Part shown: piece by piece, positions 5,583 to 19,945 of the stretch
How the letters are laid out: every line of letters begins with the position of its first letter
How positions within the stretch are numbered: position 1 is the stretch's first letter
Source of the DNA: Burkholderiaceae bacterium
GTDB taxonomy: Bacteria; Pseudomonadota; Gammaproteobacteria; Burkholderiales; Burkholderiaceae_C
DNA length: 42,434 bases
Assembly (NCBI GenBank): GCA_016790515.1
Contig: JAEUOY010000087.1
Location: forward strand, 1-42,434
Reading direction: 5' to 3'
Notes under the pieces: generated by a model
What the model was told of the DNA's origin: nothing
Database searches by the model: none
What the model saw: only the letters and a program-made list of their open reading frames with translations
Translations under genes and position numbers: made by a program

Positions 5583-6505
5583 AGATCCTGATCCCCGTCG
5601 ACGGCAGCGATCAGTCCAATGCGGCGCTGGACTTCGTCGCCTCGCGTTCGACTCTCATCGGCAAAGATCCCGAAGTCCACTTGCTCAACGTGCAGCCGAC
5701 CCTGTCGGCGCGCGTGGTCCGAGCCATTGGCCGAGAAGAGGCAAAGGCCTACCAGCGTGCCCAGGCCGATGACGTGTTGCGCCCGGCCGTGGCGAGACTG
5801 AAGCGTGCGGACATTCCAGCGAAGGCCAGCTATGTCCTGGGCAGTCGCTCGGATGCGATCGGAGCCGTGGCCCTGCGCGGCGGAAGCGACCTGATTGTCA
5901 TGGGTTCTCGCGGCCACTCGGGGCTCAAAGGGCTCCTGTTCGGCTCCATGACGAATGCCGTTCTTGCTGGCTGCACCAAGCCGCTGCTCATCCTGCGCAA
6001 CGCCAGGGCACCTCAGCGGGACTCGCTCTCCGTGGGAATCGCCGTGGACGGCAGCCGCTACGGTCAGGCAGCCGTCCGTTGGGCGATCAAGCACCGCGAT
6101 CTGTTCGGTGCGCAGCCGCGTATCGAGTTGATCCATGTGATCGACAGCCAGCAGAGCGCACCACCGCCCATCGACGGCCTGGCCTACCGCGCGAAACCCG
6201 TCTACGCAGTGGCCGCGGACGGCCATGCGCTCGCACCACAATTTATCAAGGTCATGGCCGGCGCCCTGAAGCTCTTCACCAAGGCGGGCCTGCAGGCCAC
6301 GGCAGCTCCGCTGCTGGGGGCCCAGGCCGGTGATGCCATCGCCGCCTACGCGCGCAGGCGCCAGCTGGACGTCCTGGTCATGGGATCCCATGGCCAAGGG
6401 GCGTTCAAGTCGCTCGTACTGGGGTCGGTCGCCATGCGTGTGGCTGCGCGCAGCGACAAGCCGCTGCTGCTGATCCGCGACCCGCGGCATGCCGGCCGGA
6501 GCTGA
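5579..6505 (+). CDS. Universal stress protein, tandem UspA domains
   Basis: This is a 308-residue cytoplasmic protein of two complete UspA domains. Each has a P-loop-like end: GSRGHSGLKGLLFGS in the first half and GSHGQGAFKSLVLGS in the second, both fitting G-x2-G-x9-G-S/T, so both halves should bind ATP or AMP. The N-terminus MKILIPVDGS is typical. The start ATG overlaps the stop of the HPF-like gene by 4 bp. The next gene is a close tandem paralogue (MKVLIPVDGS, SNAALDF), pointing to local duplication. An insert of about 25 residues between the domains (PPPIDGLAYRAKPVYAVAADG) distinguishes this copy. Confidence 0.93.
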   Translation: MKILIPVDGSDQSNAALDFVASRSTLIGKDPEVHLLNVQPTLSARVVRAIGREEAKAYQRAQADDVLRPAVARLKRADIPAKASYVLGSRSDAIGAVALRGGSDLIVMGSRGHSGLKGLLFGSMTNAVLAGCTKPLLILRNARAPQRDSLSVGIAVDGSRYGQAAVRWAIKHRDLFGAQPRIELIHVIDSQQSAPPPIDGLAYRAKPVYAVAADGHALAPQFIKVMAGALKLFTKAGLQATAAPLLGAQAGDAIAAYARRRQLDVLVMGSHGQGAFKSLVLGSVAMRVAARSDKPLLLIRDPRHAGRS

Positions 6506-6560
6506 TGCCGATGCGCAGGCCCGCTCGGTGCGAAGGCGACAGCCGTTTCCAGGAGCCCAG

Positions 6561-7415
6561 ATGAAAGTGCTGATTCCCGTCGACGGCAGCGTCAGCAGCA
6601 ACGCCGCACTCGACTTCATCACCGCCCGCGCTGCCTGCCTCGGCGCTCGCCCGGAGTTGCGGCTGCTCAATGTCCAGTTTCCCATCCCGCCCCGTGCAGC
6701 GCGAGCCGCGGGGCGCGAGCTGGTGCGCAGCTATCACCAGACCGAGGCCAAGGCGGTGCTCGACCCGGCGCGGAAGTGTCTGGCCGATGCAGGACTCAAG
6801 GCCAAGGCGCAGCACGTTGTCGGCAGCCCGGCCGAGGTGGTCAGCCGCACGGCCACGCAGGGCCACGCCGATCTGGTGGTGATGGGTTCGCGCGGGCAGA
6901 CGGCGCTGAAGGGGCTGCTGTTCGGCTCGGTCACCCAGGCAGTACTGGCCTCCAGCACGGCACCCCTGCTGGTGGTGCGAGAGGGGGCGACACCGCGCGC
7001 CGCGTCCCTCCGCGTGGTGATTGCCGTCGATGGCAGCCGCCACGGGCTGGCGGCCGTGCGGGCGGCGCTGGCGCTGCGGGAGGTGTTCGGCCCTGCGCCG
7101 CAGTTCCGGCTCTTGCACGTGGTGGACGGGCAGTCCGACGTGGCCAACCTCGACGCGGCCACCGCCCCGGCACTCGCGCTGTTCTCCAAGGCCAAGGTCG
7201 AGGCTGAAATGGTGCGGCTCGAGGGGCGCAACGCCGGCGATGTGATCGTGGAGTACCTGGCATCGCACCCGGCGGACCTGCTGGTGATGGGGTCACATGG
7301 GCGGGGTGCGTTCAAGGCCGTGCTGCTGGGCTCGGTGGCCACGCGTGTGGCGGCGCGCTGCAAGCTGCCGCTTCTGATCGCCCGGCCCCGTCGCCGAGGT
7401 CGACACGTGTCATGA
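6561..7415 (+). CDS. Universal stress protein, tandem UspA domains
   Basis: This is a 284-residue double UspA protein, paralogous to the preceding gene. The nucleotide-binding loops are GSRGQTALKGLLFGS and GSHGRGAFKAVLLGS. I use the ATG at 6561 because AGGAG lies 5 bp upstream; an earlier in-frame start would add 24 unrelated residues. It lies 55 bp after the upstream Usp and 12 bp before the TerB-like gene, so a four-gene operon with the HPF-like gene is likely. The C-terminus is rich in Arg (RPRRRGRHVS). Confidence 0.93.
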   Translation: MKVLIPVDGSVSSNAALDFITARAACLGARPELRLLNVQFPIPPRAARAAGRELVRSYHQTEAKAVLDPARKCLADAGLKAKAQHVVGSPAEVVSRTATQGHADLVVMGSRGQTALKGLLFGSVTQAVLASSTAPLLVVREGATPRAASLRVVIAVDGSRHGLAAVRAALALREVFGPAPQFRLLHVVDGQSDVANLDAATAPALALFSKAKVEAEMVRLEGRNAGDVIVEYLASHPADLLVMGSHGRGAFKAVLLGSVATRVAARCKLPLLIARPRRRGRHVS

Positions 7416-8021: not shown

Positions 8022-8714
8022 ATGAACCAGACCACCACCTACGACCCGACCACTTCTGGTGTCTCCAGCGTCGGCGAACGCAACCGAGTCCTGCGCAACA
8101 CGTATTGGTTGCTCGCGCTGTCGATGGTGCCGACCGTGCTCGGTGCCTGGATCGGCGTACAGACCGGGATTGCCCGCGCGATGTCGCCGGGCATCGGCCT
8201 GGTCGTCTTCCTCGTCGGAGCCTTCGGCTTCATGTTCGCGATCGAGAAGACCAAGAACTCGGCCGCCGGCGTGCCGGTGCTGCTGGCGTTCACCTTCTTC
8301 ATGGGCATCATGCTCTCGCGCCTTGTTGGCGTGGTGCTCGGCCTGAGCAACGGCGCGAGCCTGATCATGATGGCCTTTGCAGGCACCGGTGCGATCTTCC
8401 TCGGCATGGCCGCCATGTCGTCGATCATCAAGCGCGACCTGTCGGCGATGGGCAAGTGGCTGTTCATCGGTGCCATCATGGTGCTGGTGGCGGGCATCGC
8501 CAACTTCTTCATCCAGTCGAGTGCTCTGATGATCACGCTGTCGGTGCTGGTGATCGGCATCTTCTCGGCCTTCATCCTGTACGACCTCAAGCGTGTGCAG
8601 GACGGACTGGAGACGAACTACATCAGCGCCACGCTGGGTGTCTACCTGAGCATCTACAACGTGTTCCAGGCCCTGCTGTCGCTGTTCGGCATCGCTGGTG
8701 GCCGCGACGAGTGA
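8022..8714 (+). CDS. Bax inhibitor-1/YccA family membrane protein
   Basis: This is a 230-residue inner-membrane protein with about seven hydrophobic segments, typical of the BI-1/YccA (UPF0005) family. YccA in E. coli modulates FtsH, and family members may leak calcium or protons. Hallmarks are RNRVLRNTYWLLALSMVPT at the start, FGFMFAIEKTKN, and the end YISATLGVYLSIYNVFQALL. AGGACAACCC before ATG is the ribosome site. It is a paralogue of the gene at 33355-34053, with long identical stretches. Its position next to Usp/HPF genes suggests a stress-specific copy, while the other copy sits in a housekeeping setting. Confidence 0.93.
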   Translation: MNQTTTYDPTTSGVSSVGERNRVLRNTYWLLALSMVPTVLGAWIGVQTGIARAMSPGIGLVVFLVGAFGFMFAIEKTKNSAAGVPVLLAFTFFMGIMLSRLVGVVLGLSNGASLIMMAFAGTGAIFLGMAAMSSIIKRDLSAMGKWLFIGAIMVLVAGIANFFIQSSALMITLSVLVIGIFSAFILYDLKRVQDGLETNYISATLGVYLSIYNVFQALLSLFGIAGGRDE

Positions 8715-10125
8715 ATGACCCGGAGACCGGGCGGTCAACGCGGCGGGCGCGTGGACCGAAGCCGCCTTCCTGATGCTGCTGCAAGTGTTGACCAAGTTCC
8801 TGTCGGATCTCGTTGAGCGCATTCCTGCACATCCGCTGCTGGCCAGCGCGTGTCAGACCGCCCCGACGTGCTGTGCAGCCTCGGCGTCGGCAAGTGGCGT
8901 GAGGTCGCTCGGCACGGCTCGGAACAGTGTGGATGCCAGATGCCAGGAGGCCCGGGCTTGGCCTCGGGCGGCTCGGAGCGGGCCGACAGGCAGGTGTCGG
9001 CGGGTCTGAGCCGCTCGCAGCCAGTCGTCAAGGGCGCAGTGCACCCGGAGACCGCCGAGCATACCGTCACAGGGTCAGCTGTACCGACACGGCGTGCCTA
9101 CTGCGGCTGTCGATACCGTGACCACCCCGCCCGATGCGAAAGGTCGGTCATACTGACGGGCCACGAGGCAGAGGGCCGGGCGGGGCGCGAGAGAGGTTGC
9201 GATACCGTCATCGACCCTGTCAATACCGTCATCGGCTCGGGAGACCCGTCTCCGGATACCGTCAATAGTGCCCTCGAACCACGGCTTCCGCCTCGAGGAA
9301 GAGAACATTGCGAGTTTCATCGCTGAAGGTCATATCGACAGGCCACCGAGTGCACTGCTTGGCGACGGTAGAAATGTCGGTATCGGGCCGACTTTCGCGC
9401 CAGTCGGGCTGACTTCTACCTATGAGCAGCACCTTCCTGTTGACAATAGAGTGGGAATGACGGGTCCGCTGAAAAGTCGCTGCAGATCGACGGTTTGCAT
9501 CGCTCGTTGACGATCTGGCCGCGCTGTCGACCAGCCTCGCCGATTTCACTGCAGAGTCCTTGTCGCCACCGCGGCGAGGCAAGGCCTCGGCCGCCCATGC
9601 GACGGACCATTCGACTGCGCGAGACCGTGGCCGTGCCATGAGGCGCCGCAACGGCGGCGGCAGGGCAGGGCGCTTGGTTCGGCAGCACATCGAATGGCTG
9701 CGTTCGCAGGGGGCCTCGTTGAGGATCCGACCCCGTGCCGACTCGCCTCGGAACGGCCAGTCGCCCATGCGGCGGGCGCTCGTCCGCCGAGCGCAGCCGC
9801 CACCTCGGCACGGCCTGCAGCCAGTGGGCAGGAACAGCCGCTGGTCGTCGAAGGCTGGTCGGGAACTGGCTGCGCAGGGACACGCTGCGGCGCACCGGCG
9901 CACCGCCGGACAAGTGCGAGGCGACGGAGTGGGTGAAGCGACATGGCGCGCTGCAGGTCCAGCCGTGGACCGAGAGCACCCGGCTACGGTCTTGCCGGGG
10001 CCTGCCGCGGCGACACGCCACGGCCAACCCTCGCCGCCGCAGGCACACTATGCTTGAGGCCTTTTGGCGAGCCGCGTGCGCACGCACGACGGGTACCGCC
10101 TGCGTCGAACCACAGGAGAGGGCCG
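8715..10125. other. Gene-poor 1.4 kb stretch with repeat cluster
   Basis: I see no intact gene here. Open frames cross the region in several phases, but none gives a recognisable protein, a good ribosome site and steady coding character. Short protein-like pieces (for example a plus-strand stretch ASLVDDLAALSTSLADF near 9500-9550 and a minus-strand MTFSDETRNVLFLEAEAVV near 9265-9330) suggest decayed genes or mobile DNA. The part around 9060-9500 looks less GC-rich than its surroundings and holds five ATACCGT(C/G)A repeats. A possible -10 TATGCT (10050-10055) for the downstream hydrolase lies near the right end. Confidence 0.55.
9061..9264. repeat. Cluster of ATACCGTCA direct repeats
   Basis: TACCGTCA occurs in the same orientation at 9062-9069, 9203-9210, 9224-9231 and 9257-9264, with a one-base variant TACCGTGA at 9114-9121. 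All five are preceded by A, and two extend to ATACCGTCATCG. Start-to-start steps are 52, 89, 21 and 33 bp, the last two near two and three helical turns. The array lies in a stretch without a convincing gene. Confidence 0.75.
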
Positions 10126-10929
10126 TTGAACATCATCGAGCGCAACAACGTCCAGCAACTGGGTGACCGCGGCCCCGTCCTGCTGTACGCGCATGGCTTC
10201 GGCTGCAACCAGGACATGTGGCGCTTCGTCACGCCCGCGTTCGCCGCAACACACCGCCAGATCCTGTTTGACTACGTCGGCAGCGGCAGATCCGATCTGT
10301 CGGCCTTCGAGCCGCGCCGCTACGCCAGCCTGGACGGCTACGCCCAAGACCTGCTCGAGGTCTGCGACGCGCTGGGGCTGACCGAGGGCGTGATCTTCGT
10401 CGGGCATTCGGTCAGCTGCAGCATCGGGATGCTGGCATCCATCGCGCGCCCGGGGCTTTTTCAGCGGCTGGTGCTGGTAGGCCCTTCGCCCTGCTTCTTG
10501 AACCACCCGCCCGGGTACCTGGGCGGCTTCGAGCGCGAAGACCTGGAGGGCCTGCTGGCCCTGATGGACCAGAACTACATGGGCTGGGCCCAGTACCTGG
10601 GGCCGGTGGTGGCGGGCCCGGCGGGCACCGGTGAGGTGGCCACGCTGCTGACCAGCAGCTTCTGCTCGACCGACCCCAAGGCCGCCAAGGTGTTTGCGCG
10701 AGCCACGTTCTTCGCCGACAACCGGGCCGATCTGCCGCGCGTCACGCGGCCTGCGCTGATCCTGCAGAGCCGCAGCGACACGCTGGCGCCCGTGGGTGTG
10801 GGCGAGTACCTCCACCGCCACCTGAAGGGCAGCCATCTGCGCGTCCTCGACGTGGCGGGAGACTGCGCCCACCTGAGCCATCCGGACCTCGTCGTCGAGG
10901 CCATGCAGGACTTCCTCGCTCGCACCTGA
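10126..10929 (+). CDS. rsbQ: RsbQ-like alpha/beta hydrolase
   Basis: This is a 267-residue alpha/beta hydrolase closely resembling Bacillus subtilis RsbQ in length and order of motifs: AHGFGCNQDMW, FDYVGSGRSDL, SLDGYAQDLLEVCDALGL, GHSVS with nucleophile Ser95, VGPSPCFLNHPPGY, FCSTDP, Asp218 in QSRSDTLAP and the catalytic His in CAHLSHPD. RsbQ produces or processes a small hydrophobic signal needed by the PAS domain of RsbP in energy stress. The likely start is TTG at 10126 with AGGAGAG 5-6 bp upstream; this gives the RsbQ length. It stands 27 bp before a gene whose first domain is a PAS, so the RsbQ-PAS pairing is kept but with a different output. Confidence 0.92.
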   Translation: MNIIERNNVQQLGDRGPVLLYAHGFGCNQDMWRFVTPAFAATHRQILFDYVGSGRSDLSAFEPRRYASLDGYAQDLLEVCDALGLTEGVIFVGHSVSCSIGMLASIARPGLFQRLVLVGPSPCFLNHPPGYLGGFEREDLEGLLALMDQNYMGWAQYLGPVVAGPAGTGEVATLLTSSFCSTDPKAAKVFARATFFADNRADLPRVTRPALILQSRSDTLAPVGVGEYLHRHLKGSHLRVLDVAGDCAHLSHPDLVVEAMQDFLART

Positions 10930-10956
10930 GCCGCCAAGCCCAGCGCCCGTCGGCCC

Positions 10957-13900
10957 ATGACGCTGCTCGATCAACTGCCGTGTGCCGTGCTCATCACCGA
11001 CGGCAGCGGCAGCGTGATGGCGCTGAACGCCGAACTGCTGTCGCTGATCGGCGACTCCCGCCAGCGCTGGCTGGGCGCACCGGTCGACGACATGCTGCCG
11101 CCCGCCGGCCGCATCTTTCTGCAGACCCACGTCTGGCCGACGCTGTTGCGCGATGGCCGCGTCAACGAGATCCACCTGCAGCTGAAGACCGCTGGCGGCG
11201 AGCGCCTGCCGGTGCTTCTGAACAGCAGCCGCGGCGAACATGCCGGCCAGCCCGCCTTCTTCTGGACCTTCTTCTCCGCGAGCGAGCGGCACCGCTTCGA
11301 GGCCGAACTCGTCGCGCAGCGCAACCGGGCCGACTCGACCAGCCAGGCCCTGCAGGCCAGCCAGCGGTTCGTCACAGGCATCACCGACGCCATTCCGGGT
11401 CTGGTGGCCTACTGGGACCGCGAACTGCGATGCCGCTTTGCCAACCCTGCGTACCAGGCCTGGTTCAGCCGGGCGCCCGCGGACATGCTCGGCGCCCGGA
11501 TGCCGGATCTGCTGGGCCCGCAGTTGTTCGAGCAGACCCGGCCGCACGTCGATGCCGTGCTGGCGGGCCAGGAGCAGCGCTTCGAGCGTGCGCTGCGCCG
11601 CCCCGACGACAGCACAGGCCACCTCTGGGTCCACTACCTGCCCGACCGGGTCGACAACGGGGTGGTCGGCTTCTACGTGCATGCCGCCGACGTGACCGAG
11701 ATGAAGTCCGCCCAGCTGGCACTGGCGCAGGCCCGGCACGAACTGGAGCGCGAGCACGATCGCCTTCGCAACCTGATCGACAGCACGCAGGCGGGCACCT
11801 GGGAGTGGAACGTGCGGACGGGCGAGGTCATCGTCAACCGTCGCTGGGCCGAGATACTGGGCTGGACTCCGCAGGAACTCGGCCCGGTGCACAACCAGCT
11901 GCGGGTCGATCTTTCCCACCCGGACGAACTGGCGAACACGCGCCACCTGCTGCGCGAGCACTTCGCGGGCCGCACCGATTCGTACGTCACCGAGGTGCGC
12001 CTGCGCCACCGGGATGGCCGTTGGATCTGGGTCGAGGACCGCGGGCGCCTCGTCACCCGCACGGCCGACGGTCGCGCGGAGTGGATGTTCGGCGTGCAGA
12101 TCGACATCACCGACCGCAAGCGCCGGGATGAAGCCCTGCGCCGCAGCGAGGCCCTGCTCAACCGCACCGGCGAAGCGGCCGGGGTCGGCGGCTGGGAGCT
12201 CGACCTGGCCACCCGGCAGCTCAGCTGGTCGGCCCAGATGCGGCGGATCCACGGCGTGGCCGACGACTTCCAGCCCGACCTGGATGCCGCCATCGCCTTC
12301 TTTGCGCCGCAGGCGCGGCCCATGATGCGGGGCGCCGTGGAACAGGCGATCGGCAGCGGCCGCCGCTGGGACGTCGAGGCGCCTGTCGTCCGCGCCGATG
12401 GGAGCCGCATCGTCGTGCGCTCGGTGGGCCAGGTGGAGTTCGAGGGTGGGCGCCCCGCCCGCCTGCTGGGCGCCCTGCAGGACATCACCGCGACCGTCGA
12501 GCACCGGCGTGCCCTGCAGGCCGCGCACCAGCGCATGGCGCTGGCAGCCGACAGCGGCGGCATTGCCGTCTTCGAGATCGATCTCGCGGCTGGCACACTC
12601 GTCGCCGACGCATGGTTGGTGCGCCAGTACGAGTTGCCGCCGGGCCGTGGCCATGTCCCGGCCGACCTGTGGTCCTTGCGTCTGCACGCCGACGACCGCG
12701 AAGCGCTGGCGCGTGCCGTGGCGCATGCCACGGCGCGCCAGCGCACGCTGGAGGCCGGCTTCCGCATCGTGCGCAGCGATGGCACGCGCCACATGCGCGT
12801 GGCCGCCCGCATCACCCGCGACGACCATGGCCAGGCGCAGGGCCTGGTGGGGGTGAGCTGGGACGTGACGGCCTTGCAGGAGCTCAGTGCGCGGCTGGCC
12901 CAGCAGCACGAGCTCATGCGCGTGACGCTGCAGTCCATCGGCGACGCCGTCATCACCACCGATGCCGCCGGCCTCGTCACCTGGCTCAACCCGGTGGCAG
13001 AGCGCATGACGGGCTGGCCGGCCGCCGAGGCGCAGGGCCAGCCGATGACCGAGGTCTTCCGCATCGTGCACGAGCAGACCCGCGAGCCAGCGCCCGACCC
13101 CGTGGCCGCGTGCCTGGCCGAGCGGCGCACGGTCAGCCTGGCAGACCCCACGGTGCTGTTGGCGCGCGACGGCGCCGAGCACGGCATCCAGGACTCCGCG
13201 GCACCCATCCTGGGCACCCGCAACGAGGTGCTGGGCGTGGTCCTGGTGTTCCATGACGTCAGCGAACAGCGGCGACTGACCGGTGAGCTCGCCCACCGGG
13301 CCACGCGTGATGCGCTGACCGGTCTGGTCAACCGCGCCGAGTTCGAGTCCCGGCTGCTGCGCGCGCTGCGCAGCGCCCAGGACGACGGAAACCAGCACGC
13401 GCTGCTGTGCATCGACCTGGACCATTTCAAGCAGGTCAACGACGCCTGCGGCCACGCCGAAGGCGACCGCCTGCTCAAGCAGATCACCCGGCTGCTGGCC
13501 GATGCCGTCCGCGGGCGCGACACCGTGGCACGGCTGGGGGGCGACGAGTTCGCCATCCTCCTCGAGCACTGCAGCCAGGACCAGGCCCTGCGCGTGGCAC
13601 AGAAGGTCTGTGACCAGGTGGACCAGTTCCGCTTCGTGCACGGCGAGCGACGCTTCCGGGTCGGCACAAGCATCGGGCTGGTACCGGTGCACAGGCGCTG
13701 GCCCAGCGTCGCGGCGCTGCTGAAGGCGGCCGACGGCGCCTGCTACGCGGCCAAGGAAGCGGGCCGCAACCGGGTGCAGGTCTGGTCCGACGACGACGCT
13801 GAACAGCAGGTGCGGCAGGCCCAGGTGCAGTGGTCCACGCGCATCGAGCGGGCGCTCGACGTCACCGGGTTTGCGCTCCATGCGCAGCGCATCTTGCCCT

Positions 13901-14607
13901 TGTCCGGCAAGCCGCGTGGGCTGCGTGCCGAGGTGCTGCCGGGCCTGGAGAACGAGGACGGTTCGGTCACGCTCCCCGGCGCCTTCCTGCCCGCCGCCGA
14001 ACGCTTACACCTCGCCACCCGCATCGACCGGCGGGCACTCGAAGCGCTGGTGCAGCGCTTGCTCGCGCTGCCGTCCCTGAACGGGATCGAGCGGCTCAGC
14101 GTCAACCTGTCGGGCCAGTCGCTCGAAGACCGCGCCTTCCGCGCCTGGGCCGTCGATCTGCTCGACAGGGCGGGCCCCGGGGTCTGCCGCTGCCTGGGAC
14201 TGGAGGCCAACGAAACCGCTGCCGTGGCCCACCTCGCCGACGCAAGGCAGTTCTTCGAGCAGGTGCGCTCGCGGGGGGTCCAGGTCGCGCTGGACGACTT
14301 CGGCGCCGGTGCCTCGTCTTTCGGCTACCTGAAGACGCTGCCGGTCGACGTGCTGAAGATCGACAGTCAGTTGGTGGCCAACCTGATCGATGAGCCTCTG
14401 GACGAAGCAGCGGTGCGCTGCTTCGTCGACGTGGCACGCGTTGCGGGCCTGAGCACCGTGGCCGGGTCCGTGGAACGGGCCGACGTGCGACAGCGGCTGC
14501 TGGAACTGGGCGTGGATGACGCGCAGGGCAACCTGCTCCACGGCCCGGAGCCGCTCGACCGGGTGCTGGCCATCGTGATGTCGGCAACTGCCAGAACCCA
14601 TGCCTGA
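10957..14607 (+). CDS. Multi-PAS GGDEF protein with degenerate EAL domain
   Basis: This is a 1216-residue cytoplasmic cyclic-di-GMP signalling protein without evident membrane helices. Order: six PAS-like units starting near residues 3, 138, 270, 397, 525 and 652, then GGDEF (about 780-935) and EAL (about 955-1210). The GGDEF motif is intact (861-865) and is preceded by RGRD, the RxxD inhibitory site, so diguanylate cyclase activity is expected. The EAL domain is altered: AEVLPGL replaces E(A/V)LLR (E992), and the AE.VE loop reads AGSVE (G1170), although NLSGQS, DDFG (1113-1114), KID (K1134) and a late QG remain. Phosphodiesterase activity is therefore doubtful. It follows rsbQ by 27 bp and overlaps the next kinase gene by 8 bp. 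No strong ribosome site precedes the ATG. Confidence 0.9.
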   Translation: MTLLDQLPCAVLITDGSGSVMALNAELLSLIGDSRQRWLGAPVDDMLPPAGRIFLQTHVWPTLLRDGRVNEIHLQLKTAGGERLPVLLNSSRGEHAGQPAFFWTFFSASERHRFEAELVAQRNRADSTSQALQASQRFVTGITDAIPGLVAYWDRELRCRFANPAYQAWFSRAPADMLGARMPDLLGPQLFEQTRPHVDAVLAGQEQRFERALRRPDDSTGHLWVHYLPDRVDNGVVGFYVHAADVTEMKSAQLALAQARHELEREHDRLRNLIDSTQAGTWEWNVRTGEVIVNRRWAEILGWTPQELGPVHNQLRVDLSHPDELANTRHLLREHFAGRTDSYVTEVRLRHRDGRWIWVEDRGRLVTRTADGRAEWMFGVQIDITDRKRRDEALRRSEALLNRTGEAAGVGGWELDLATRQLSWSAQMRRIHGVADDFQPDLDAAIAFFAPQARPMMRGAVEQAIGSGRRWDVEAPVVRADGSRIVVRSVGQVEFEGGRPARLLGALQDITATVEHRRALQAAHQRMALAADSGGIAVFEIDLAAGTLVADAWLVRQYELPPGRGHVPADLWSLRLHADDREALARAVAHATARQRTLEAGFRIVRSDGTRHMRVAARITRDDHGQAQGLVGVSWDVTALQELSARLAQQHELMRVTLQSIGDAVITTDAAGLVTWLNPVAERMTGWPAAEAQGQPMTEVFRIVHEQTREPAPDPVAACLAERRTVSLADPTVLLARDGAEHGIQDSAAPILGTRNEVLGVVLVFHDVSEQRRLTGELAHRATRDALTGLVNRAEFESRLLRALRSAQDDGNQHALLCIDLDHFKQVNDACGHAEGDRLLKQITRLLADAVRGRDTVARLGGDEFAILLEHCSQDQALRVAQKVCDQVDQFRFVHGERRFRVGTSIGLVPVHRRWPSVAALLKAADGACYAAKEAGRNRVQVWSDDDAEQQVRQAQVQWSTRIERALDVTGFALHAQRILPLSGKPRGLRAEVLPGLENEDGSVTLPGAFLPAAERLHLATRIDRRALEALVQRLLALPSLNGIERLSVNLSGQSLEDRAFRAWAVDLLDRAGPGVCRCLGLEANETAAVAHLADARQFFEQVRSRGVQVALDDFGAGASSFGYLKTLPVDVLKIDSQLVANLIDEPLDEAAVRCFVDVARVAGLSTVAGSVERADVRQRLLELGVDDAQGNLLHGPEPLDRVLAIVMSATARTHA

Positions 14608-16141
14608 CCTGGACGATCAACCCCGCCTCGCCGCGCTGCACGATCTGGCGGTGCTGGACACGCCCCCCGAACCGGTGTTCGACGCCATCGCCGCGCTCGC
14701 CGCGCAGGTGTGCGAGGTACCGATCGCGCTGATATCGCTGGTGGACGTGGCGCGCCAGTGGTTCAAGGCCAACATGGGGCTTCCGGGGGTCAGCCAGACG
14801 CCGCGCGAGGTGGCCTTCTGCCACCATGCCATCGCCCAGGCCGCGTTGCTGGAGGTTCCCGACGCCCAGGCCGACCCGCGCTTCCGGGACAACCCTCTGG
14901 TGACCGGCCGGCCCGACATCCGCTTCTACGCGGGTGCGCCCATCGAAGTGGCTGGCGGCCACCGCATCGGCACGGTATGCGTGATCGACCGTCAGCCCCG
15001 GCAGTTGACGGATGTGCAGCGCACCGTGCTGGCCGGCCTGGCGCGCATCGCCAGCCTGGCGCTGGCCGATCGACGCAGCAGCCAGGATGCGGCAGCGGCC
15101 TTGGCCCAGAGCGAGGCCCGCTACCGCGCCATCGTGGAGGACCAGAGCGAACTGATCTCGGTGGCCGACCCCGATGGCACCCTGCGCTTCGTCAATGCGG
15201 CCTACGCCAGGCACTTCGACATGACGCCGCAGCGCATGGTGGGCCGCAACCTGCTCGACTTCGTCGACGATGCCGACCGCGCCGCCGTGGCTGCGCATCT
15301 GGCTTCGTTGCGCCAGAGCGGGGCCGCGGCCGGCGGCATCAACCGCATGCGGTCCGCAGCCGCGGCGGCGCGCTGGGTGTCCTGGGTCAACCGGCCGCTG
15401 CTGGGCGCAGGCGGCGCGGTGCAGGCGATCCAGTCGGTCGGCCGCGACATCACCGAGCAGCACCAGGCCCAGGAAGCCTGGCGGGCAGCCCTGGCCGAGC
15501 GTGAGACCCTGCTCAAGGAGGTCTACCACCGGGTCAAGAACAACCTGCAGATGGTGCAGAGCCTGCTCAGCCTGCAGCAGCGCGCGTCGACCAACCCGCT
15601 GGCGCAGCATGCGCTGCAGGAAAGCGCGCGCCGCGTGCGCGCCATGGCCCTGGTGCACGAGAAGCTGTACCAGACAAGCAACCTGCGGACGGTCTCGCTG
15701 CGCGACTACACCGCCGATCTGCTGCGCCAGATCGACGAAGCCACCGGCGCCACGCGGCAAGGCGTGGCGTTGCAGGCCGCAGTGCCGGACCTGGCCTGCC
15801 AGCTCGACGGCGCCATCCCCTACGGCCTCATCGTCACCGAGCTGGTGACCAACGCGATGGAGCACGCCTTTGCCGGCGGCAGGGCCGGCCGGCTGCAGGT
15901 CACACTCGAGCTGCAAGGCGAGGTGCCGGTGCTGTCGGTGTTCGACGACGGCCCCGGCCTTCCGGCCGACTTCGACATCGACAAGGCGCCGTCGATGGGC
16001 CTGCAGCTGGCCAGCGCGCTGGCCGCCCAGCTCGGCGGCCGGCTGCAGGCCCGATCGGCGCAAGGCGCGCAGTTCAGCGCCGCACTGCCGCGCCTCGTGG
16101 CCGCTGCGCCAGCGGCGGTCAGCCCGCCGCCGGCAGCGTGA
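14600..16141 (+). CDS. GAF-PAS sensor histidine kinase, HisKA_2 family
   Basis: This is a 513-residue soluble kinase: GAF (about 20-160, with FKANMGLPG and FCHHAI), PAS (about 170-290), HisKA_2 dimerisation domain with EVYHRVKNNLQ (His310) and a HATPase (about 390-500) with NAMEHAF and DDGPGLP. HisKA_2 kinases are often sensors of light or redox, but the ligand is unknown here. Its ATG overlaps the upstream gene's stop by 8 bp, so it is coupled to the GGDEF protein. Its last 23 bp overlap the 3' end of the convergent REC-PAS kinase gene. The kinase core is very like that of the dCache kinase at 18008-19945. Confidence 0.92.
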   Translation: MPDLDDQPRLAALHDLAVLDTPPEPVFDAIAALAAQVCEVPIALISLVDVARQWFKANMGLPGVSQTPREVAFCHHAIAQAALLEVPDAQADPRFRDNPLVTGRPDIRFYAGAPIEVAGGHRIGTVCVIDRQPRQLTDVQRTVLAGLARIASLALADRRSSQDAAAALAQSEARYRAIVEDQSELISVADPDGTLRFVNAAYARHFDMTPQRMVGRNLLDFVDDADRAAVAAHLASLRQSGAAAGGINRMRSAAAAARWVSWVNRPLLGAGGAVQAIQSVGRDITEQHQAQEAWRAALAERETLLKEVYHRVKNNLQMVQSLLSLQQRASTNPLAQHALQESARRVRAMALVHEKLYQTSNLRTVSLRDYTADLLRQIDEATGATRQGVALQAAVPDLACQLDGAIPYGLIVTELVTNAMEHAFAGGRAGRLQVTLELQGEVPVLSVFDDGPGLPADFDIDKAPSMGLQLASALAAQLGGRLQARSAQGAQFSAALPRLVAAAPAAVSPPPAA

Positions 16142-18011
16142 GGATCGCGGTGGTGCCGACACGGGCCTCGCTGTCGATCACCAGGGTGCCCTTCATCTCG
16201 GCCACCAGTGCCCGGCAGATCACCAGCCCCAGTCCCGTGCCCTGCACGCGCGTTCGCTCGGCGCCGAGGCGGTCAAAGGGCTGGTAGAGGCGCTCGAGCT
16301 GGTTCGGCGTCATGCCGATCCCGCTGTCCTTCACGCTGACGATCACCTGGCCGGCGCCACCGGCCTGCGCCGACATCCGCACCTCGCCCCCCTGACGGTT
16401 GTACTTGATCGCATTGGAGCCCAGGTTCAGCAAGACCTGGCGAAGGCGCTTCGCGTCGGCCATCACCAGGAGCCCTTCCGGGACGTTCACCGCCAACGTG
16501 ATGCCATGCGACCGGGCCAGCCCCTCGATCAGCATGCGGGTCTCGGCGACGACCTCGTCCAGCCTCGTGGGCTGCAGGTCCAGCTGAAGCGCGCCCTGCG
16601 CCGCACGGTTCAGGTCCAGGAGGTCGGTCACCAGGCCCAGCAGGTGCTCGCCGGCGCTGCGGATGTGGTCGACATAGGTGCGCATCTGCTGCGGCTCGAG
16701 CGCAGCGCTGCTCATCTGCATCAGTTGCGCAAAGCCGATCACCGCGTTCAGCGGCGTGCGCATCTCGTGGCTGACGCGTGACAGGAACTCGCTCTTGTGC
16801 GCGCTGGCCAGCTCGCTGGCCTCGCGGCGCATGCGCTCCTGGGCCAGCTCGGCCAGGCGCTCCGCGGCCTGCTTCTGCTCGCTCAGGTCGTGCACCTGGT
16901 AGAGGTGGCAGGTCGCTTGCGGGCCGTCGCCGAGCTGGGAGACGCTGACCAGCGTCCACACCGGCTCGGCCGGCGCCGGGCGCAGGTAGCGCTTTTCGAA
17001 CTGCACCATGCGGGTCTGCCCCGACGCCAGCTCGTGCAGGCGCTGCACCTCGTGCTCGCGGTCGGCCTCGACCGTGAACTCGGTGTGGCTGCCACGGTGC
17101 AGCCGATCGCGCTCGACACCGAGCAGCCGGCACAAGGCGTCGTTGACCTGCAGGAAGTGGCCGTCGACAGACACCAGCGCCATGCCGAGCGGCGCGTGGT
17201 CGAAGGTGCTGCGGAAGCGCTCCTCGCTGGCACGCAGCTGGGCTTCATGCGCCAAGCGCTCGGTGGCGTCGCGCAGCACCAGCACGGCTCCGAGTGCCTG
17301 GCCGTCCTCGGTGCGGACGGGGCTTGCGGTGTTGTCCACGACCTTGTCGGCGCCTGCGCGGTGCAGCAGTGGCTGGCCGTGCAGGACCGGCCTGGGCCGG
17401 CCCTCGGCGATGACGTCGCGCACCAGGCCAGCCGCCGCGGCGCCGCCACCCTCGGGCGCCAGCCGCACGACCTCGTCCACGCTGCGCCCCGCGGCGTCTT
17501 CGCTCGGCCAGCCCGTCAGGCTTTCCGCGGCCGGGTTCAGGAACCGGACCCGCGCCTGCAGGTCGGTCACCACCACGCCATCGGCCACGCACTGCAAGGT
17601 GCTGGCAAACCAGCGGTCGGCCTCGCGAAGCTGTCGCTCCAGCTGCGCTTTCGTCAGTGCCACCTCGATGCCGGCCCGAAGTTCCTTCAGCTGGTAGGGC
17701 TTGGTGAGGTAGCCGTAGGGCGCCGTGCGGGCGGCGCGCTGCACGGTCTCGGCATCGCTGTGCGAGGTCAGGAAGATCACCGGCGTGGCATGCTCGCGGC
17801 GGATCTGCTCGGCGGCGTCGATGCCGTCGCCCTGGCCCTGCAGGCGCACGTCCATGAGCACCAGCCCGGGCCGGTGCCGGTGGACGGCCGCCACCGCATC
17901 GGCGGCGCTGCTGGCCATCCCCACCACCTGGTAGCCCAGGTCCTGCAGCTGCAGCTTGAGGTCCAGCGCGACGATGGCTTCGTCTTCAACGATCAGGATC
18001 GCGGCGTTCAT
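16119..18011 (-). CDS. REC-PAS-PAS hybrid histidine kinase
   Basis: This is a 630-residue soluble protein beginning with a receiver domain (ILIVEDEA, phospho-acceptor Asp54 in VLMDVRL, Lys104 in YLTKPY), followed by two PAS domains (about 125-255 and 260-385), HisKA with SHEMRTPLN (His415) and HATPase ending GTGLGLVICRALV. A receiver at the N-terminus means its own kinase is probably gated by another kinase; the upstream coupled dCache HisKA_2 kinase is the natural partner. I start at ATG 18011, where a receiver domain normally begins and which overlaps the upstream stop by 4 bp (ATGA). The 3' end overlaps the convergent GAF-PAS kinase by 23 bp. Confidence 0.92.
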   Translation of the reverse strand: MNAAILIVEDEAIVALDLKLQLQDLGYQVVGMASSAADAVAAVHRHRPGLVLMDVRLQGQGDGIDAAEQIRREHATPVIFLTSHSDAETVQRAARTAPYGYLTKPYQLKELRAGIEVALTKAQLERQLREADRWFASTLQCVADGVVVTDLQARVRFLNPAAESLTGWPSEDAAGRSVDEVVRLAPEGGGAAAAGLVRDVIAEGRPRPVLHGQPLLHRAGADKVVDNTASPVRTEDGQALGAVLVLRDATERLAHEAQLRASEERFRSTFDHAPLGMALVSVDGHFLQVNDALCRLLGVERDRLHRGSHTEFTVEADREHEVQRLHELASGQTRMVQFEKRYLRPAPAEPVWTLVSVSQLGDGPQATCHLYQVHDLSEQKQAAERLAELAQERMRREASELASAHKSEFLSRVSHEMRTPLNAVIGFAQLMQMSSAALEPQQMRTYVDHIRSAGEHLLGLVTDLLDLNRAAQGALQLDLQPTRLDEVVAETRMLIEGLARSHGITLAVNVPEGLLVMADAKRLRQVLLNLGSNAIKYNRQGGEVRMSAQAGGAGQVIVSVKDSGIGMTPNQLERLYQPFDRLGAERTRVQGTGLGLVICRALVAEMKGTLVIDSEARVGTTAILTLPAAG

Positions 18012-19945
18012 GCTTCTTGCTCTCTCGCAGCGGGCTCTGCAAACGCAGGCATCTCGGTGGTCAACACGGCGCCGTCGGCGACCTGAACCGTGAGCTTGCC
18101 GCCCAGTTGTGCCGCCAGGCTGCAGGCCAGTTGCAAGCCCATCGATGCATTGGCATCGAGCGTGAAGCCGCGCGGGAAACCTGCACCGTCGTCGCGCAGC
18201 GCCAGGCGCAATCCTCGACCGGCGCGCTCGACAGTCAGCCACACGTTACCACCGGATCCGGCCGCGAACGCGTGCTTCAGGCTGTTGCTGATGAGCTCGT
18301 TGACCAGCAGCCCATAGGGAATTGCCGCTTCGATCCGGGCCTCGAAGCCCACCACGTCGGCGTGCAGCCGGACGCCGCGGTCCGATGCGCCCGTGGTCTC
18401 ACCCAGGTACTGCAGCAACTCGTGGGTGTAGTCCGGCAAGGACACGGCTTCCAGCGACGCTGACTGGTAGAGCTTCTCGTGCACCAGCGCCATGGCCCGA
18501 ACCCGGCTGGCGCTCTCGTCCAGCGCCTCCTGCGCCGCACTGTCGCTGAGGCCGCGGCGCTGCAGGCGCAGCAGGCTCTGGATGACCTGGAGATTGTTCT
18601 TCACGCGGTGGTAGACCTCACGCAGCAAGGTCTCGCGTTCCTTCAGAGCCGCGTCGAGCCGGCGGCGCTGTTCGAACGGCTCGGAGACGTCCAGGCTGGC
18701 GGTGTAGAGGCCGACGATATCCCCGGTCTCGTCGCGCTCGGGGGCCAGCAGGGTGGCCCAGACGCGGTGGCCGGCTGCTGAGGTCTCCTCGATCTCGACG
18801 TTCTGCGCCTGGCCCTGCAAGGCGCGTTCGATGGCCAGCACCAGCGCAGGTGGTGCGGGCCGGTCGCCGAGCTCTTCGCTCGTGCGGCCCAGGATGCGCT
18901 CGCGCGGCAGCGCCAGGTACCGGCACTGCGCAAGGTTGACGAAGCGGTAGCGCCGCGACGGGTCGAGGTAGGCGATGCGCAACGGCAGGTTGTCGGTGAT
19001 GGTGCGCAGGAAGGATTCACTGCGCTCGGCGTGATGGCGCGCATCCACCAGGGCCTGCTGGGCCTGCTCGCGCCGGCCGATCGTGCGCGACATGCCAAAC
19101 GCCCCGGCAAAGAACGCGGCCGATACCAGCGCGATCAGGACACCGTGCCAGACCAGGCGCTGGCGCCAGGCGGCGAGTGCATCGGTCAGCGAGATGCCGG
19201 CCGAGATCACCAGCGGGTAGTTGCCGAGGGTGCGGTAGCTGTACAGGCGCTCGGTGCCATCGCGCACCACGACCTGCTGCACCGTGCCATGGGGCGCGCG
19301 CGGCAGGTGCTGCGTGAACATCGGCGCGTCGGCCCAGTTTCGTTCCGACAAGGCATCGTTGCGCGGCGCCGTGGCCAGCAGCCAGCCGTCGCGGGTGAAG
19401 AGGGTGGCAAAGCCGTTGTTGCGCGTGTCCGCGGTGTCCAGCAGGCGTTGCAGGGGTTGAAGGTCGAGCTGCGCCTGCCAGGCAGTCCTGCCGCCGCCGG
19501 TCTGCGCGGCGGGGAACTTGCCCACCGTCAGGCGCCAGGAGCCGTCCGCATCCCGCCGCAGACGGTCCACCTGCAGCAAGCCCGGCCCGGCCTGCAGCAG
19601 CCGGGTGCGCCACTCGTCGGCGCGACCGTTGTCCAGGACGACCGGCTGCGCAGCGCGCAGGAGGCCAGCCACGGGCAACGCGGGGCGCGCCGACGGCGGA
19701 CCGTGCGCCAATTCATCGAGCTCGACGTCGGCACGCCGGACCAGCTGGTGCACGGTTTCGCCGAGCAGACGGGCCAGCGCTGCGGTCTGCCCACGCGCGG
19801 TCTGGATGGCCTGAGCGCGCTCCCGGTACAGATCGTAGGCGGCCGAAGCCATCAAGGTCAGGCAGGTCACACCGGCGATGACGTAGGGCTGGAGATGGGG
19901 ACGCAGGATCATGGAACGCGCGGCGCTGCTCGATGAGTGAATCAT
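18008..19945 (-). CDS. Membrane dCache-PAS histidine kinase, HisKA_2 family
   Basis: This is a 645-residue inner-membrane kinase. One helix near 21-40 and a second near 265-285 bracket a periplasmic double-Cache-like sensor (SWRLTVGKFPA, NNGFATLFTRDGWLLAT, YSYRTLGNYPLVISAG). A PAS domain (about 310-430) and HisKA_2 with EVYHRVKNNLQ (His446) follow, then HATPase with NSLKHAF and DDGAGFP. The kinase core shares long identical runs (ASRVRAMALVHEKLYQ) with the GAF-PAS kinase at 14600-16141. Start could be ATG 19945 or 19912; neither has a good ribosome site. It is coupled by ATGA to the REC-PAS kinase and is preceded by a perfect 16-bp palindrome at 20002-20017. Confidence 0.92.
   Translation of the reverse strand: MIHSSSSAARSMILRPHLQPYVIAGVTCLTLMASAAYDLYRERAQAIQTARGQTAALARLLGETVHQLVRRADVELDELAHGPPSARPALPVAGLLRAAQPVVLDNGRADEWRTRLLQAGPGLLQVDRLRRDADGSWRLTVGKFPAAQTGGGRTAWQAQLDLQPLQRLLDTADTRNNGFATLFTRDGWLLATAPRNDALSERNWADAPMFTQHLPRAPHGTVQQVVVRDGTERLYSYRTLGNYPLVISAGISLTDALAAWRQRLVWHGVLIALVSAAFFAGAFGMSRTIGRREQAQQALVDARHHAERSESFLRTITDNLPLRIAYLDPSRRYRFVNLAQCRYLALPRERILGRTSEELGDRPAPPALVLAIERALQGQAQNVEIEETSAAGHRVWATLLAPERDETGDIVGLYTASLDVSEPFEQRRRLDAALKERETLLREVYHRVKNNLQVIQSLLRLQRRGLSDSAAQEALDESASRVRAMALVHEKLYQSASLEAVSLPDYTHELLQYLGETTGASDRGVRLHADVVGFEARIEAAIPYGLLVNELISNSLKHAFAAGSGGNVWLTVERAGRGLRLALRDDGAGFPRGFTLDANASMGLQLACSLAAQLGGKLTVQVADGAVLTTEMPAFAEPAAREQEA

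Follow-up and report, generated by a model that had tools for sequence, protein, structure and literature searches.

An RsbQ homologue with aspartate at the catalytic histidine position, encoded next to a six-PAS GGDEF-EAL protein in a Burkholderiaceae bacterium

What the alpha/beta hydrolase RsbQ does for its partner RsbP has been a question since 2001, and the locus described here could help to test whether hydrolases of the RsbQ type have to cleave a molecule or whether binding it is enough. The karrikin and strigolactone receptors of plants arose from this hydrolase family, and for them, too, cutting versus binding has been debated. The window, by which we mean the whole 42,434-nt stretch of DNA that was analysed, comes from one fragmented assembly (5.0 Mb, 176 contigs, 82% complete). 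Two open reading frames, at 10126-10929 and 10957-14607, lie where the original prediction had placed them, and their features are as follows.

10126..10929, + strand: RsbQ-type alpha/beta hydrolase, 267 aa, TTG start, assigned by 1wom, Pfam and AlphaFold2
10861..10863, + strand: GAC (Asp246), at the codon for the catalytic His (H247 in B. subtilis)
10957..14607, + strand: six-PAS GGDEF-EAL protein, 1216 aa, 27 nt past the rsbQ stop
10957..11292, + strand: PAS1, residues 1-112, RsbP-PAS type, F-alpha signature, no DIT, PAS fold in AlphaFold2
11110..11139, + strand: RIFLQTHVWP, residues 52-61, F-alpha signature, within modelled helix 49-66
11347..13281, + strand: PAS2-PAS6, residues 131-775, ordinary DIT-type, Pfam PAS_3/PAS_4/PAS, borders by our own division
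13297..13782, + strand: GGDEF domain, residues 781-942, Pfam E = 7.5e-44, RGRD I-site and GGDEF motif intact
13822..14556, + strand: EAL domain, residues 956-1200, Pfam E = 3.8e-46, EVL motif present

The hydrolase frame has AGGAGA at 10114-10119, ahead of its TTG start. Its best match among solved structures was B. subtilis RsbQ (1wom/1wpr, E = 3.8e-91, residues 2-264), which bears out the predicted RsbQ-like identity, followed by Olei00960 (3qvm, 2.9e-76) and then plant D14-like receptors (4.4e-53 and weaker). Pfam assigned Abhydrolase_1 (E = 1.3e-15), NCBIfam returned sub-threshold hydrolase names only, and the AlphaFold2 model had a mean pLDDT of 89.0 and a pTM of 0.90. The pocket and gate residues proposed for B. 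subtilis RsbQ, namely F27, V97, F136 and F196 (Fig. S2 legend, PMC3183031), are present as F25, V96, F135 and F195, in agreement with the prediction that the substrate-pocket motifs are kept. A search for a second RsbQ in the source genome, as assembled to 82%, gave general hydrolases of 23–31% identity as next best matches. By sequence, plant KAI2/D14 receptors are members of this hydrolase family (best plant match E = 4.4e-53) and share the triad positions, which are in use in KAI2 (PMC3548789), but they differ in that their partner is F-box/SMXL rather than PAS, and 1wom is much closer to the window protein (E = 3.8e-91).

The gene that follows was predicted to begin with a PAS domain as in RsbQ-RsbP, and PAS1 not only opens the partner, directly downstream of rsbQ, but carries the marks of the RsbP class. 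RsbP-type PAS domains have a conserved F-alpha helix (residues 53, 55, 56 and 59, with P62), where residue 53 is basic, 55 aromatic and 59 His or Tyr, as well as C10, E72 and P86, and have no terminal DIT motif (PMC3183031). PAS1 has C9, R52, F54, H58, P61, E71 and P85 and no DIT end, its numbering being related to RsbP by an inferred offset of one, since the comparison was made from the published residues. The signature RIFLQTHVWP occurs in PAS1 alone and D[IV][TS] is absent from it; PAS2-PAS6 each end in DIT, DVT or DVS, and none has the F-alpha helix pattern. The count of six PAS domains is our own division of the partner, for which Pfam gives PAS, GGDEF and EAL matches. The AlphaFold2 model of PAS1 (residues 1-132, mean pLDDT 87.8) has a PAS-like order of elements, with the signature held in helix 49-66, while the best solved relative found by profile was FixL, at an E value of 0.0082 that is too weak to use. 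The F55A substitution in RsbP abolished RsbQ binding, and F55 and Y59 have a role in the contact (PMC3183031); by our own residue mapping, RIFLQTHVWP is the predicted counterpart of the B. subtilis RsbP helix that contacts RsbQ.

We surveyed the neighbours of rsbQ for such partners using 178 tblastn matches of at least about 150 aligned residues, which gave 156 distinct homologues once identical proteins were collapsed. In 143 of these, the 700 nt downstream contained an RsbP-type PAS on the rsbQ strand; 12 lacked one, and one sequence ended too early, so that the domain was found directly downstream in 143/155 homologues with enough downstream DNA (window included). By sample, the figures were 75/80 for genome_contigs loci (the related loci surveyed being the best 80 of 115), 20/22 for phylum-sample matches and 63/70 for family-sample matches, the three samples overlapping partly in species and being not fully independent. 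The rsbQ-PAS pairing is far from chance, and the co-occurrence on which the original prediction depended is wide. RsbQ was found at E = 1e-45 or better in 20/398 phylum genomes and at 1e-60 in 58/399 family genomes (G000 included in each).

The 72 seeds of the PAS1 profile were downstream PAS domains from loci L001-L099, among them PAS1 of the window; no seed came from loci numbered L100 and up, some of which share a species with seeds. The profile was specific, with 165 of 181 matches in 1.31 Mb of locus DNA lying just downstream of RsbQ. The other PAS domains of the window scored at most 8.8 bits with it, and PAS1 scored 183.8 bits, a value that is high by construction, as for near loci, because PAS1 is among the 72 seeds. 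The strict F-alpha helix pattern was present in 107/143 downstream PAS domains, with looser versions in the more distant RsbQ copies.

Among the 12 exceptions is L061, where a strong RsbP-type PAS profile match lies upstream of rsbQ, at about 3569 (+), and where the gene order may be swapped. Three RsbQ copies of 63–65% identity with GHSAS or GRSAS (L040, L043 and L057) have no RsbP-type PAS partner nearby; L040 repeats the protein of L043, and L057 lacks the His preceding the Ser. Four further rsbQ copies (L042, L079, L091 and L136) have one or two in-frame stops and are errors or pseudogenes.

Nadezhdin et al. 2011 (PMC3183031) had described modules of RsbQ and RsbP-PAS whose outputs are phosphatases, kinases and cyclases, EAL being present in three, and novelty of the rsbQ-cyclase pairing was therefore rejected. 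Comparison with known systems supports reading the window pair as an RsbQ/RsbP-PAS pairing with c-di-GMP output in place of the phosphatase, which is not a new idea. The window shares with RsbQ-RsbP of the B. subtilis sigma-B energy-stress branch an adjacent upstream hydrolase gene, an N-terminal PAS of the same class and the RsbQ pocket and gate residues, but it has GGDEF-EAL instead of PP2C, five extra PAS domains and Asp in place of the triad His. With the published RsbQ-PAS-cyclase modules, for example the two of Psychromonas ingrahamii, it shares the two-gene arrangement and the cyclase output, and one of the P. ingrahamii copies has EAL as well, as do two other proteins (PMC3183031). Those modules differ in having one or few PAS domains against six here, and in a triad that is called highly conserved there (PMC3183031), whereas the window has lost the His. 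Among the 142 distinct non-window partners in our survey, outputs were histidine kinase in 65, GGDEF without EAL seen in 46, GGDEF-EAL in 22 and none seen in 9, as called with window seeds, to which phosphatase outputs are invisible, and with 23 partner genes ending at the locus border.

The overall account that we consider likely is that the window encodes the published RsbQ/RsbP-PAS sensor module and that the hydrolase gates c-di-GMP synthesis through PAS1. RsbQ would dock on PAS1 through the helix with F54 and H58, and PAS1 would change with the state of the RsbQ pocket; the signal would then pass through helical linkers and the five further PAS domains to the activity of the GGDEF dimer, and the hydrolase would in this way gate c-di-GMP synthesis. 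Direct contact between RsbQ and RsbP is backed by two-hybrid and pull-down data in B. subtilis (PMC3183031), and the 2RsbP/2RsbQ complex of that species has been predicted with AlphaFold2 in a 2025 paper (PMC12143880). According to the authors of PMC3183031, the energy-status assumption is without experimental support. Counted against the gating account are the 12/155 RsbQ homologues without such a PAS downstream, and the cyclase could be controlled chiefly by the five extra PAS domains.

Single-chain fusions of the two parts were found in two output classes. In genome G362 (one contig), hydrolase, PAS region and GGDEF are joined in one 582-residue frame (L119:583-2331, -), for which Pfam gives the hydrolase and GGDEF and the PAS1 profile gives the PAS part; in genome G771, hydrolase, PAS, HisKA and HATPase share one 665-residue frame (L163:1450-3447, +). 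By alignment, G908 covers residues 14-660 of the latter with no internal stop, and the relatives G877 and G886 of this kinase form align with one stop. The fused cyclase form occurs in 1/13 genomes of its genus, where three other copies have one in-frame stop between the parts. Natural RsbQ-PAS fusions favour direct contact, with the two parts working side by side, and the RsbQ-PAS-GGDEF and RsbQ-PAS-kinase chains could be purified at a fixed 1:1 ratio. In the available text of PMC3183031, 'fused' and 'fusion' denote PAS-output proteins and laboratory constructs, not hydrolase-PAS fusions; a targeted literature search for the latter gave only this paper, and we make no wider claim of unpublished status.

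The window departs from the prediction that its hydrolase keeps the triad. The B. subtilis triad is S96, D219 and H247, and the window retains Ser95 (TCG) and Asp218 (GAC), but 1wom aligns with the His of GHCPHMS (H247) where the window has Asp246, so that GAC at this position rules out an intact triad as the sequence stands. His was present in 154/154 other homologues covering the position. Across the 156 distinct homologues, Ser was conserved in 155/156, Asp in 156/156 and His in 154/155 covered, the sole Ser deviant being L159 (Leu), and from this near-total conservation we argue that the triad residues matter. The first set (92 tblastn matches, window included) likewise had no other covering copy without His, L076 ending before the position. 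We class the window protein as an RsbQ homologue whose triad is broken as sequenced, and do not count it as a proven active RsbQ. If the Asp is not an error of assembly, the hydrolase should, by analogy with plant AtD14, be impaired; as assembled it is probably unable to turn over substrate, and the input in the source genome would be weakened, lost or reduced to binding.

Because the His loss comes from one assembly that is 82% complete, it is possible that it reflects assembly error, recent loss or a binding-only hydrolase. A serious possibility, which we put a little short of an even chance, is an error in the assembly consensus; the triad of the organism's RsbQ would then be normal and the module a typical member of its class. 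Asp246 is a single-codon deviation and, at the 64 columns with at least 95% conservation in the first set (distinct sequences other than the window's), the window's only departure; the genome is fragmented and incomplete, and there is no decay elsewhere in rsbQ. Set against this, 17 columns had at most one deviant in the 156 sequences, 14 of them none, and the three deviants fell on H94 (L057), S95 (L159) and H246 (window), where random errors need not cluster, though the numbers are small. The module is known already; it is the triad anomaly that needs read-level confirmation.

On the output side, the partner retains an intact diguanylate cyclase signature in the alignment, with GGDEF and the RxxD I-site (RGRDTVARLGGDEF). 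The EAL domain was compared in 16 aligned proteins, window included, one relative ending before the last motif. Two residues kept by the relatives are replaced in the window, namely the Arg after EVL (EVLLR-type motif), kept in 15/15 other aligned EAL relatives, and the Glu of the EGVE-like motif (VAE), kept in 14/14 covering relatives. This Glu is presumably among the ten residues important for EAL activity. The Arg is number 2 of those ten (PMC3527489), and the residues required for phosphodiesterase activity are not all present in the window. Since the EAL domain is without two residues kept by its relatives, the cyclase is likely the only output of the partner. The proposal that GGDEF-EAL has replaced the PP2C phosphatase stands as far as it concerns a c-di-GMP output, with GGDEF and RxxD intact, but not for an EAL domain that lacks Arg and Glu.

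The hydrolase and its partner belong to a five-gene cassette that also includes the following genes.

14600..16141, + strand: GAF-PAS-HisKA_2 kinase by Pfam, 78% identity and the same order in Rubrivivax pictus
16119..18242, - strand: receiver-PAS-PAS-HisKA-HATPase protein by Pfam, convergent, 80% identity in R. pictus
18008..19945, - strand: dCache-PAS-HisKA_2 kinase by Pfam, end of the cassette, 76% identity in R. pictus

The first of these shares 8 nt with the cyclase gene at its stop and is probably on the same transcript as the cyclase. Window positions 10127-19912 are collinear with R. pictus over five genes and 9.8 kb (81% nucleotide identity), and about 4 kb on either side of the R. 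pictus cassette had nothing detectable in common with the window. The close RsbQ type (85%) occurs in 2/21 genus genomes, the source genome and R. pictus, and a 51–56% type occurs in G006, G011 and G012 and as a second copy in G008. From this distribution, the cassette looks like a block that was gained or lost as a whole. The R. pictus module (L009, L183) has the same gene order and a hydrolase 85% identical, but it keeps the triad His where the window has Asp. Arg and Glu are present in its EAL domain, but the DDFG of the window and 14 others is EDFG there, so that different EAL residues have been lost in each of the two closest copies.

Between the window and R. pictus, dN/dS was 0.14 for RsbQ, 0.65 for PAS1, 0.35 for PAS2, 0.21–0.25 for PAS3-5, 0.39 for PAS6, 0.29 for GGDEF and 0.37 for EAL. 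PAS1 was the fastest-evolving part, in line with the lower identity of PAS than of RsbQ reported in PMC3183031. Branch counts for rsbQ did not differ between the window and R. pictus with three outgroups (p = 0.17, 0.84 and 1.0), nor did those for the partner (whole protein p = 0.85, GGDEF p = 0.61), and relaxed selection on the window branch was accordingly rejected as proof of decay. Departures from the relatives' consensus in GGDEF numbered 15 window-specific against 4 R. pictus-specific (binomial p = 0.019, one of eight domains and uncorrected; p = 0.61 by nucleotide count).

That excess, together with the loss of the triad His and two EAL residues, is what would be expected if the module were decaying in the source organism, with hydrolase and EAL inactive and PAS1 no longer signalled. 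We regard such decay as unlikely, given that both frames are open, the GGDEF motifs are intact and the branch counts do not differ. The EAL loss is moreover not tied to the His loss, because R. pictus keeps the His and has an EAL change of its own, and an rsbQ under constraint like that of its relative (dN/dS 0.14) fits badly with a long-dead hydrolase.

For what RsbQ contributes, two models are set out in PMC3183031. In the first, which the original prediction adopted, a small product made by RsbQ is passed to the pocket of PAS1. The near-exceptionless triad conservation given above speaks for it, as does the requirement for the triad in B. subtilis, where RsbQ triad substitutions are null (PMC3183031). 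Yet the window copy lacks the His, L159 lacks the Ser and still has a PAS partner, plant AtD14 D218A signals without hydrolysis (PMC6331613), and no ligand of RsbP-PAS is known according to PMC3183031; on balance we hold this model to be possible though rather doubtful. In the second, the hydrolase pocket itself is the sensor (PMC3183031).

A further reading would make RsbQ a receptor that binds without cutting, and in the window lineage the synthesis of c-di-GMP would then be set, by way of PAS1, by binding only. It would fit triad-broken copies (His to Asp in the window, Ser to Leu in L159) that keep a PAS partner and remain under constraint, and if true it would parallel plant D14, where signalling does not require hydrolysis, and would speak for the second of the models in PMC3183031. 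The AtD14 mutants also bear on it from the other side: D218A complements, while H247A and S97A give neither hydrolysis nor complementation (PMC6331613), and on this pattern His loss, unlike Asp loss, is expected to harm binding as well. We give binding alone little credence, less than we give decay of the module.

For the choice between cutting and binding, the survey adds three handles, namely the regular pairing (143/155), the single-chain fusions and the two triad-broken copies with a PAS partner, of which the fusions and the second triad-broken copy (L159) are the most useful by-products. A GGDEF member makes the choice directly testable, because an assay for c-di-GMP is simpler than one for a sigma-factor cascade.

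In the RsbQ homologue encoded at L159:4486-5310 (-), Leu replaces the catalytic Ser (VGHLVS), and a PAS-kinase gene comes next. Relatives from its genus are 69–73% identical, and L165, from the same place as one of them, has Ser. No tRNA was found in the 42,434-nt window. To the left of the cassette, 6489-7415 encodes two universal-stress-protein domains and 8022-8714 a Bax1-I family membrane protein, both ordinary.
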